From Akkermansia sp. (lineage in GTDB: Bacteria; Verrucomicrobiota; Verrucomicrobiia; Verrucomicrobiales; Akkermansiaceae), in contig JAFXCP010000021.1 of NCBI GenBank assembly GCA_017521405.1, positions 62,001 to 126,000 of the forward strand: DNA of 64,000 nucleotides, read 5' to 3'. The notes beneath the pieces were generated by a model, which saw only the letters and a list, made by a program, of their open reading frames with translations, searched no databases and had not been told where the DNA came from. Shown here piece after piece: positions 853 to 3,528 of this stretch. Numbering within the stretch: the stretch's first letter is position 1; each line of letters begins with the position of its first letter. The position numbers were made by a program, and so were the translations under genes.

Positions 853-881
853 TTGAAAGAGGAATTCCTATCTGGTAGAAT
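853..881 (+). promoter_or_regulatory. Promoter of the small hydrophobic peptide mRNA
   Basis: TTGAAA (853-858), 17 bp, TAGAAT (876-881). Predicted start is near 888, giving a leader of about 137 nt before the peptide start codon, unusually long for this genome. Confidence 0.65.
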
Positions 882-1024
882 ACAGCTGCTCTTCCGCTAT
901 CAGTTCGGCTGGTAGGTGGCCACGTCACCTATCGGCGGAGAGTAACCAGTCCTGTCCGCTAAAGGGACGTGTCCGCAAGGGTACGGAACAGCAGTTGAAC
1001 CAGACTGGAGGAGATTAACACGAA

Positions 1025-1096
1025 ATGTCTGTAGTATCGTGGATCGAGCTCATTGTGCTGATTGTACAAATAGTGATATTTGTCGTGAAGCTCTAA
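1025..1096 (+). CDS. Small hydrophobic peptide, candidate type I toxin
   Basis: A 23-residue ORF that begins MSVVSW and is mostly I/V/L, with a single membrane-spanning stretch (about residues 7-21) and a Lys near the C-terminus. It has its own promoter (853-881), a strong GGAGGAG ribosome-binding site at 1007-1013 (11 nt before ATG), and a terminator at 1104-1147, so it is a complete monocistronic gene. Size, hydrophobicity and the long structured leader match type I toxin peptides (Ibs, ShoB, TisB, ZorO class) in style, but no family sequence is recognised. Ten bases over its start codon (1026-1035) are perfectly complementary to the short RNA encoded just downstream. Membrane toxicity is inferred. 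Alternatives are a membrane micropeptide of another role. Confidence 0.65.
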   Translation: MSVVSWIELIVLIVQIVIFVVKL

Positions 1097-1103
1097 TGGC
1101 TCA

Positions 1104-1147
1104 GCGCAGTTGGGCTCGCCACCCAGCTGCGCACCTTCTTTTTAGTT
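1104..1147 (+). terminator. Terminator of the small peptide gene
   Basis: An 11-bp stem (1104-1114 with 1122-1132, one G-U pair) is followed by T-rich sequence. It begins 8 nt after the peptide stop codon. Confidence 0.85.
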
Positions 1148-1175
1148 TTTTTGAGTTTATACTTTTAGTAAAAGC

Positions 1176-1203
1176 TTGACAACAGCGTTAATTTTAGTAT
1201 CAT
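1176..1203 (+). promoter_or_regulatory. Promoter of a short RNA
   Basis: TTGACA (1176-1181), 16 bp, TATCAT (1198-1203). The perfect -35 makes it one of the strongest-looking promoters in the window. Predicted start is near 1210. Confidence 0.6.
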
Positions 1204-1209
1204 TTCCTC

Positions 1210-1292
1210 AGAAATCCACTACAGACAGTGTGACATTTCCAAGTTTCCGGAGCTTTCCCAACGGCGTAAAGGGAAAGCTCCGCTTCTTTTTT
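1210..1292 (+). ncRNA. Candidate small RNA antitoxin (about 80 nt)
   Basis: The segment is bounded by a strong promoter (1176-1203) and a strong terminator (11-bp perfect stem GGAGCTTTCCC 1249-1259 with 1271-1281, then a T-run to 1292). It contains no ORF. Its 5' part can pair with the peptide mRNA: ACTACAGACA (1218-1227) is the exact complement of 1026-1035. In an alternative register GACATTTC (1232-1239) complements 1022-1029, while 1218-1223 pairs with 1030-1035. ATCC (1214-1217) adds pairing with 1041-1044. The paired target covers the start codon, so blocking of translation is the natural inference. It is encoded in tandem on the same strand as the peptide gene. Confidence 0.6.
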
Positions 1293-1300
1293 CGTCTTAA

Positions 1301-1501
1301 CCGAATCAGATAGTCATCATCGAGACCAAGGGCGACCATCTGGCCAATGAGGAGACGCTGGCCAAGCTGCACTTGGGCAGAGCGTGGCAGGAACAAGCCG
1401 GGCCGGGGTATCGCTATTTCCTCGTGTTCCAAGACAAGGATATCAGCATGAACGGGGCGTACCCCATGAGCGAGTTCCTCAAGATTCCGGCCGAACTGTA
1501 A
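1301..1501 (+). pseudogene. Type III restriction subunit (Res) C-terminal fragment
   Basis: A 66-codon open stretch follows a TAA in the same frame (1298-1300) and ends at a TAA (1499-1501). It encodes IVIIETKGDHLANEE and then LGRAWQEQAG with YRYFLVFQDKD, the typical C-terminus of type III restriction helicase/nuclease subunits. The helicase domain and the Mod methyltransferase are absent. It is a decayed tail left by deletion and starts directly after the short-RNA terminator. Confidence 0.7.
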
Positions 1502-2974: not shown

Positions 2975-3223
2975 TTAGAAATGCTTAATAGCGTATGCTC
3001 TGCCTGCACCTGTTTTAAGATAGCGTTCGTAAGCAAAGGCTTTTTCTTTGTCACGAAAAGCAATGGCGGTTTCAATATACCATGGTGCAAATTTGGAGGT
3101 GTGGGGGACGTGCCCGGTGTTGTGCATTGCCAAGCGTTCTTGCAAATCATGCGTTACGCCTGTGTAGTGATGTTTCCCGGTAGCGACATCACGCAGAATG
3201 TAGACGTAGTAGAACGAGCCCAT
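2975..3223 (-). CDS. GIY-YIG domain nuclease-like protein
   Basis: An 82-residue single-domain GIY-YIG protein of the UPF0213/YhbQ type. From the chosen ATG it starts MGSFYYVYILRD, with the motif variants YYVYIL and HYTGVT corresponding to GIY and YIG. Then come a conserved Arg (LQERLAMHN), an AIAFRDKEKAFAYERYLK helix with the conserved Glu, and a short C-terminus. The frame is open further upstream, but the family begins just before the YVYIL strand, so the start at 3223 fits. Members are small putative endonucleases of unclear role and are often found as isolated genes, as here. Confidence 0.8.
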   Translation of the reverse strand: MGSFYYVYILRDVATGKHHYTGVTHDLQERLAMHNTGHVPHTSKFAPWYIETAIAFRDKEKAFAYERYLKTGAGRAYAIKHF

Positions 3224-3388
3224 GGAGGTAGTATATGAGGGAGAGGGGGCACAATCAATACAAAAATGGATTTGCACCAGCTTATCTGCCTTGCTTACCA
3301 TTTGTCTTCTGCATCGCGGGTGTGCCCGCTTCCGCACGTTCGTGCTTCAGCGTGGCAGCCTCCCTTTTTTATTTCGTTGTCACGCAAT

Positions 3389-3455: not shown

Positions 3456-3528
3456 TGGAGCATAGCGGATTCGAACCGCTGACCTTCTCAATGCCATTGA
3501 GACGCTCTACCAACTGAGCTAATACCCC
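3456..3528 (-). tRNA. tRNA-Ala (anticodon GGC)
   Basis: A cloverleaf on the minus strand: acceptor GGGGTAT pairs with ATGCTCC, the D-arm contains AGCTCAGTTGGTAGAGC, the anticodon arm TCTCA-ATGGCAT-TGAGA gives anticodon GGC, and the T-arm contains GGTTCGAATCC. Discriminator A73. CCA is not encoded. Its promoter (3561-3589) leaves a leader of about 25-30 nt for RNase P to remove. Confidence 0.95.

Follow-up and report, generated by a model that had tools for sequence, protein, structure and literature searches.

A probable type I toxin-antitoxin family with a tandem same-strand antisense RNA in Akkermansia

Tandem transcription units in the window

The locus lies on contig JAFXCP010000021.1 of a 1.99-Mb Akkermansia genome (GCA_017521405.1, here G000), and the window denotes the whole stretch of 64,000 nucleotides that was analyzed from it. 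Two transcription units follow one another on the forward strand. The first opens with the promoter TTGAAA-17-TAGAAT, which has a TG ahead of the -10 element (853-881), and continues into a structured leader RNA domain (884-1022) that matches the leader covariance model R1 at 147.1 bits, a score from a model built in part from the window copy. Folding and alignment place the closing stem of the leader at 888-992, with GCU 888-890 paired to AGC 990-992 and UUCCG 892-896 paired to CGGAA 984-988. In the alignment, a pseudoknot joins CCAGUC (946-951) to GACUGG (1003-1008), and the 3' strand of this helix overlaps the first two bases (1007-1008) of the Shine-Dalgarno sequence GGAGGAG (1007-1013). 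A 23-codon ORF (1025-1096, stop codon included) encodes the predicted membrane peptide MSVVSWIELIVLIVQIVIFVVKL, and is followed by a terminator-like hairpin of 11 pairs and T-rich DNA (1104-1132). The mRNA folds with a z score of -4.88 over 886-1140. In the upstream DNA of most relatives, a -10-like element was found by eye at a comparable distance from the leader.

The second unit has the promoter TTGACA-16-TATCAT (1176-1203), matching 11 of 12 consensus positions, and would give an antisense RNA of about 83 nt (1210-1292), the candidate antitoxin. This RNA has a fold z score of -3.87 and is matched by the antisense RNA model R2 (G000:C15:63175-63288); it ends in an intrinsic terminator (1248-1292) made of a 12-bp stem (1248-1282) and a T run. 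Transcript starts, near 888 for the mRNA and at 1210 for the antisense RNA, were placed from the promoters. Every coordinate agrees with a preliminary description of the locus, which had listed a promoter, leader, ORF, terminator, second promoter, and short RNA unit in this order.

The RNA carries near its 5' end the seed ACTACAGACA (1218-1227), part of which is exposed in a predicted 5' hairpin loop (1221-1226). As proposed earlier, these 10 nt are an exact complement of 1026-1035, covering the start codon and first codons. A complement of at least 10 nt to the start window arose in only four of 2000 dinucleotide shuffles of the window RNA, and none of the 2000 reached the energy of the predicted duplex (-31.1 kcal/mol; shuffle mean -17.9, sd 3.7), which covers 1005-1044 of the mRNA. 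When the whole window mRNA was scanned with its RNA, the initiation region was the best site, at -31.1 versus -21.4 elsewhere. The duplex includes a second contact (1228-1240), in which GTGT 1228-1231 pairs with ACAC 1018-1021 and ATTTCC 1235-1240 pairs with GGAGAT 1010-1015. The latter, an anti-Shine-Dalgarno contact, is weak in the window copy, with one G-U among its six pairs and a perfect-match count of only 4 nt, and it is clearer in most relatives. An 8-nt complement (1232-1239 to 1022-1029), described earlier as an extension of the 10-nt one, does exist, but both use mRNA bases 1026-1029 and are therefore competitors. The predicted duplex uses the GTGT/ACAC pairing and the anti-Shine-Dalgarno hexamer instead, as in the relatives. 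Measured against shuffled mRNA starts, the window pair reaches only z -2.9, and its subfamily (L025, L026, L035, L091, L094, L110) is likewise weak, at z -2.3 to -3.6.

Leaders and peptides of a multicopy family

The window module is one member of a multicopy family comprising 58 distinct leader units, of which 56 come from Akkermansia genomes, one from a misbinned-looking contig (L046), and one from a viral contig (L090); a further viral copy, L179, was added later. A covariance model built from 11 leaders (R1) found 57 places in 25 of 261 genomes of the family Akkermansiaceae (one of 16 genera), and matched 20 of 387 genomes in the order sample (one of 50 genera) and three of 387 in the phylum sample (one of 197 genera); these counts are lower bounds because stricter filters were applied to samples of more than 40 genomes and a limited number of candidates was scored per genome. 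Matching named contigs identified Akkermansia as the sole genus, and where a host is given for those contigs it is the gut of goat, sheep, cattle, buffalo, deer, yak, or horse. The genomes were assembled from metagenomes and are fragmented. One of them (G207) has seven leader copies, the maximum, and a DNA search located a second leader in the genome of the window itself. In the family sample of 195 genomes the same search gave matches in seven further genomes, one of them (G080) probably by chance; this match, L009, was dropped, as it lies outside the leader and its DNA contains no module. A blastn search of plasmid and phage record collections returned no match, and neither did a third pattern scan of viral contigs, for one antisense RNA type.

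A pattern scan gave 46 stretches, 36 of which are assigned to Akkermansia or Akkermansiaceae. Among the other ten, L044 and L046 are true leaders, L064 is a weak R1 match (24.9 bits), and R1 does not match the other seven at an E value of 0.01. The two true leaders are of the Akkermansia type and stand on contigs filed under a Bacteroidaceae MAG (L044) and a Saccharibacteria MAG (L046); both contigs are probably misbinned, and L044 shares its leader and position with L083. For the unit set, 65 of 104 listed rows were used, leaving out repeated places and weak matches (L064 and the second match in L011), and these reduced to the 58 distinct sequences, with the identical pair L096/L097 in G207 counted once. 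An ORF of 23-25 codons follows the leader in 52 of the 58. Five others (L018, L039, L108, L113, L114) are cut by contig ends and one, L010, is degenerate; two more units, L031 and L037, end before the RNA, which leaves 50 testable units as the denominator used below. One module is preceded, at a distance of about 0.5 kb, by an AbiEi/AbiEii pair, a type IV toxin-antitoxin system by Pfam (L060:3197-4623).

Across 54 distinct leaders, 92.6% of pair cells are standard pairs (shuffled mean 87.2), and 17 of 40 pairs have changes on both sides (shuffled 9.8), whereas slid controls are 23-54% paired; the alignment was fitted to the nested structure, toward which these counts therefore lean, and related sequences inflate them. 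The closing stem is paired in 98.1% of cells, but five of its eight pairs are invariant and none has a both-side change, so that it is without covariation support. The pseudoknot helix, which stands outside the model, is paired in 96.3% of cells and has both-side changes at two of its six pairs. It occurs as CCAGUC/GACUGG, CCAGUC/GGCUGG, CCAGCC/GGCUGG, and CCAACC/GGUUGG; the first pair fails in 10 of the 54 leaders, and in L112 the strand is shifted by one column and reads CCGACC/GGUCGG. At the level of sequence, the leader thus carries a covarying pseudoknot that overlaps the Shine-Dalgarno sequence. Rfam 15 at gathering thresholds identified two tRNAs in the searched DNA and matched neither the leader nor the antisense RNA; with E values up to 10 there were five matches, all far under the gathering scores.

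The LexA site of the phylum is GTTC-N4-GAAC, and this motif was found in none of 57 upstream regions. Another inverted repeat, TTCA-N4-TGAA, lies over the -35 element of the peptide promoter in 17 of the 57 (e.g., L091, L102, L016) and is absent upstream of the window copy; it is a possible operator.

The window peptide has a GRAVY of 2.37, the upper end of the range among 31 distinct peptides (1.29-2.37), whose best 17-residue windows score 1.91-3.18. Read by eye, the consensus is MNxRxMIELIxLILQVILFVMNFIR. Over 34 distinct 15-codon cores the dN/dS is 0.18, and by this measure the peptide is under purifying selection and is conserved as a peptide. A Glu is invariant in all 34 cores, and the position seven residues after it is polar in all 31 distinct peptides (25 Gln, four Glu, two Lys); the two residues would therefore lie on one face of a membrane helix. 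Four of the peptides had no match in Pfam or NCBIfam, and in PHROGs gave one family of unknown function at an E value of 0.1, nothing usable. One further locus, L157 (G201:C67), has a MNTRIM-type peptide ORF and an RNA; no leader core is recognizable in the 330 nt preceding that RNA.

Antisense RNAs across the family

A downstream antisense RNA on the same strand is present in all 50 testable units; on the other strand, the search for RNAs was limited to both-strand matches to R2. A promoter scan found the RNA in 45 of the 52 ORF-bearing units, and in 44 of these a TTGAC-type promoter lies 76-99 nt past the stop codon, with a distance of 4 nt in L091. Five units missed by the scan (L036, L102, L103, L104, L109) have the RNA with weaker promoters, and the other two end before it. 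The RNAs share a plan in which the seed lies in the 5' part and the anti-Shine-Dalgarno stretch in a linker, and a terminator comes last. In about 18 of 29 minimum-energy folds, judged by eye, the seed sits wholly or partly in a 5' hairpin loop, often AUCAG...CUGAU; the other folds differ. RNAalifold found no common pair among the antisense RNAs, so a common hairpin is tentative and R2 is a sequence-only model.

The 45 units provided 33 distinct pairs of RNA and mRNA, in which the cognate duplex averages -31.8 kcal/mol, compared with -16.4 for the same RNAs with other alleles. The cognate ranked first among the 33 in 27 cases, second in four, and third in two, and none of 10,000 permutations reached the observed energy sum (-1048; best permuted -702). 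The longest perfect complement in the start region averages 9.4 nt over the 45 cognate pairs; it is at least 8 nt in 78% of them versus 0.6% of 1844 mismatched pairs. Inside single genomes or contigs, 49 cognate pairs have a mean of -34.1 (weakest -27.6), compared with -17.0 (strongest -27.9) for 93 different-allele pairs. For the 28 distinct RNAs besides that of the window, the complement search was limited to about -22 to +24. An anti-Shine-Dalgarno match of at least six perfect nucleotides is found in 20 of the 29 distinct RNAs, the window RNA being among the other nine, and seeds of only 5-6 perfect nucleotides are found in six (L028, L029, L095, L101, L106, L112). The plan persists, in new letters, among divergent members such as L111, where 14 nt pair at codons 4-8 and another 9 nt at the Shine-Dalgarno sequence, and L112, where the Shine-Dalgarno contact is 10 nt long. 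Judged from these alignments, both RNA contacts change in step with their own mRNA. The preliminary description had named loss of complementarity in relatives that retain both units as an outcome speaking against a functional pair; the opposite was found, matched changes in 33 distinct pairs. About twenty kinds of cognate pair can be distinguished, several of them together in one genome.

L010 (G183) is the only unit with full downstream DNA and no RNA, and R2 has no match nearby; its ORF has lost the usual start codon and the usual end. A second, smaller family has the same layout, a different leader without the large domain, and peptides beginning MRPITPTEA. Its copies are L164:190-560 (G204:C77) and, on the reverse strand, L168 (G198:C40) and L173 (G205), in three of 261 family genomes. 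Five of the eight genome matches to this family were short, and the loci L174-L178 show no module. The seeds CCGTTGGTGT and CCGTTGGGGT match ACACCAACGG and ACCCCAACGG, changing in step in the two intact copies, L164 and L168. In L173 the RNA is truncated and the ORF damaged. Damage to the ORF where the RNA is missing, as in L010 and L173, fits better with a peptide that would be harmful when unguarded, although there are just two cases and simple decay would give the same picture.

Both viral contigs are of phage type. L090 has matches to portal, head protease, major head protein, and tape measure genes, and its module is encoded on the opposite strand, flanked by one gene of 144 codons and one of 139 codons near the tape measure. 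A downstream flank resembling the end of the 144-codon tail-region gene was found in 17 of the 50 units (with loosened patterns for two), and with many different alleles. L179, the other phage contig, carries the allele MNLRNG plus an extra RNA that, from letters read by eye, matches the MNYRIM allele, the one present at that site in L090. In the window, a 64-codon C-terminal protein fragment (1307-1501, forward strand) directly follows the antisense RNA, and this or another recurrent fragment is the flank of 12 of the 50 units. An apparent resemblance of the fragment to type III restriction enzymes received no support in Pfam or PDB sequence searches and was discarded. Further along the window, a GIY-YIG nuclease-domain protein, identified by Pfam, is encoded on the reverse strand (2978-3337) near a tRNA gene (3456-3528).

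R2 matches 77 places in 24 of 77 Akkermansia genomes, and a good part of these have no toxin upstream. Among 22 places examined for an upstream toxin, L157 turned out to be a module that has both ORF and RNA; two others were assigned to the second family (L164, L168), and three (L161, L163, L170) are each the second RNA after a complete module. In L023, three RNAs stand in a row, one cognate and two for other alleles. G211, which has no leader match, has an RNA on a contig that reaches only 177 nt upstream of it, and the hits L162 and L167 are weak and have no convincing target. The genome of the window itself contains an antitoxin-like RNA whose promoter is decayed and which lacks a toxin (L159; G000:C10:34047-34144, reverse strand), the best target of which is the MHAIDM allele, not found in that genome. 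Tandem extra RNAs share a promoter beginning CTTGACTGA, as at L154:560 (G208:C44), L023:1933-2163 (G213:C5), and L007:469 (G179). With a consensus drawn from the array members themselves, this promoter class (21-29 of 30 positions) was recognized in eight of 11 tandem extra RNAs, one barely passing, versus none of 45 cognate RNAs (maximum 20) and none of 12 solitary entries (maximum 19), among which one place was entered twice. The extra RNAs L154b and L023b reach -47.0 and -44.9 with their inferred targets, versus about -37 to -38 for the cognate RNA.

Orphan RNAs were compared by hand with their own genomes, and the target allele was absent for 20 of 21 (13 assemblies), with some assignments weak (L152b, -28.4) and the L108 and L113 units cut before the allele becomes readable; the exception, L166, has no recognizable promoter. 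With about two of some twenty alleles per genome, such absence is near chance and therefore proves nothing. We tentatively suggest, at somewhat less than even odds, that Akkermansia and its phages carry antitoxin-only RNA arrays as a heritable immunity repertoire against the addiction or exclusion systems of rival elements. Equally tentatively, each array unit would stand behind another unit, would have its own promoter and terminator, would lack a toxin, and would match the toxin of another allele, one found in other genomes or phages. The simpler alternative is that the extra RNAs are remnants of modules whose toxin gene was lost. If the array reading holds, the arrays would be the RNA equivalent of immunity genes stacked together, and the roughly twenty allele types would evolve by matched change.

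Interpretation and relation to known type I systems

We consider it likely that the locus belongs to an apparently undescribed family of type I toxin-antitoxin modules with a tandem same-strand layout, in which the short membrane peptide is probably a self-poison silenced by an adjacent RNA that fits its own copy. The type I reading of the preliminary description gains support from the matched complementarity in relatives, the conserved peptide, and the copy without RNA whose ORF is broken. The family displays the sequence-level features of type I systems, namely a small, hydrophobic, conserved peptide and a base-pairing RNA. In the mechanism that we infer, the first promoter would drive an mRNA in which roughly the first 120 nt form a compact domain with a pseudoknot, reaching as far as the Shine-Dalgarno sequence, and the ORF of 23-25 codons after this leader would yield a peptide with a single membrane helix. 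The second promoter, nearer to consensus and just downstream on the same strand, would drive the short RNA. In this RNA, the copy-specific seed within the 5' portion, probably a hairpin, would pair with the start codon and first codons, and the stretch after the seed would pair with the Shine-Dalgarno sequence. Binding of the RNA would block ribosome entry and may open the pseudoknot; peptide synthesis would therefore require that decay of the RNA outpace its renewal. The peptide would then insert into the inner membrane and depolarize or arrest the cell, and carriage by phages would give the module addiction or phage-competition functions.

A phage superinfection-exclusion or abortive-infection gene, with the RNA protecting the lysogen and no addiction module involved, is a possible but rather unlikely alternative. 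It would account for the tail-region-gene-like flanks, for the two viral contigs that carry different alleles at the tail-gene site, and for the extra RNAs that match other alleles, whereas no phage was linked to the 12 units with another common flank, and mechanistically such a gene would still be a type I pair.

We think it unlikely that the leader is the main switch, sensing a ligand or protein in the manner of a riboswitch, with the downstream RNA a secondary brake. The conservation of the leader (66 of 144 columns invariant in alignment A1, of 11 leaders) exceeds the needs of pairing, the pseudoknot adjoins the Shine-Dalgarno sequence, and Rfam gave no match, all of which would suit a sensor. 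However, the conserved antisense RNA would suffice for control, and pseudoknots have been proposed in tisB and timP with no ligand named in the available parts of the sources (PMC7708055, PMC11228461).

Less probable still is that the antisense RNA controls a small, nontoxic peptide of the membrane, such as one that regulates a membrane protein. No known toxin family matches the peptide, and much of the same signature would be expected for a nontoxic regulator silenced likewise, but the many alleles with private RNAs, the up to seven leader copies in G207, the phage carriage, and the extra RNAs aimed at other alleles suit a harmful product better, as does the ORF damage upon RNA loss in L010 and L173, two cases only. 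Chance as the origin of the 1210-1292 unit and its complementarity could draw on the z of only -2.9 for the window pair alone, but it is already refuted at the level of sequence by the RNA shuffles and the family permutations, none of which reached the observed values.

If the type I reading is correct, type I pairs would extend to the Verrucomicrobiota, in a genus of wide interest. The allele series would constitute a natural experiment on how orthogonality evolves in short RNA pairs, and the module would make the anti-addiction idea directly testable with phages and lysogens. In agreement with the preliminary description, no account of this Akkermansia family was found in the literature searched, with preprints and most subscription journals outside its scope. 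As far as that literature extends, the family would be the first in the Verrucomicrobiota, because the available part of one 2025 report limits the type I pairs known before its cyanobacterial case to Proteobacteria, Firmicutes, and Tenericutes (PMC12390103). That case, msoT1/msoA1 of Microcystis, resembles the present family as a type I pair beyond the classical phyla and differs in being cyanobacterial; the two are set side by side from its description there and not by sequence.

The parallels drawn earlier to zor-orz, shoB-ohsC, and tisB-istR fit in part. Like the present family, zorO/orzO and shoB/ohsC combine small hydrophobic toxins with a non-overlapping RNA, and antitoxin-only genomes are reported for orz in the part of PMC11264685 available, which mentions no arrays of heterologous antitoxin RNAs. 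Likewise, tisB/istR-1 shares with the family a membrane peptide toxin (here predicted), a long structured leader, and a separate, non-overlapping RNA gene. Layout and target are where the parallel fails. According to the portion of PMC4147584 available, the antitoxin genes of the tisB/istR, shoB/ohsC, zor/orz, and dinQ/agrB group are divergent and their RNAs have the long 5' UTR, rather than the initiation site, as their binding target, whereas here the RNA lies downstream on the same strand and would cover the Shine-Dalgarno sequence and start codon. On these grounds of sequence layout and target, the family falls outside the tisB/shoB/zor/dinQ group, and no profile match links the tisB peptides to those of the family. 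In Fst/RNAII (par of pAD1), as proposed here, ribosome binding is blocked, in that system through an interaction between the repeats DRa and DRb (PMC4147584); the RNAs of that system overlap extensively at their 3' ends, unlike the two separate tandem genes found here. The combination of a tandem same-strand RNA, a two-part lock on the Shine-Dalgarno sequence and start codon, and a pseudoknotted leader is absent from the families compared. For the leader, the relevant precedents, as far as their sources are available, are the tisB pseudoknot, proposed to serve ribosome standby (PMC7708055), and the timP mRNA pseudoknot, proposed as the active form that is destabilized by the antitoxin RNA (PMC11228461). 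Placed beside timP/timR by description and not by sequence, the family shares the leader pseudoknot, and by this analogy a timP-like role, in which the pseudoknot is opened by the antisense RNA, may be the best model for the leader.
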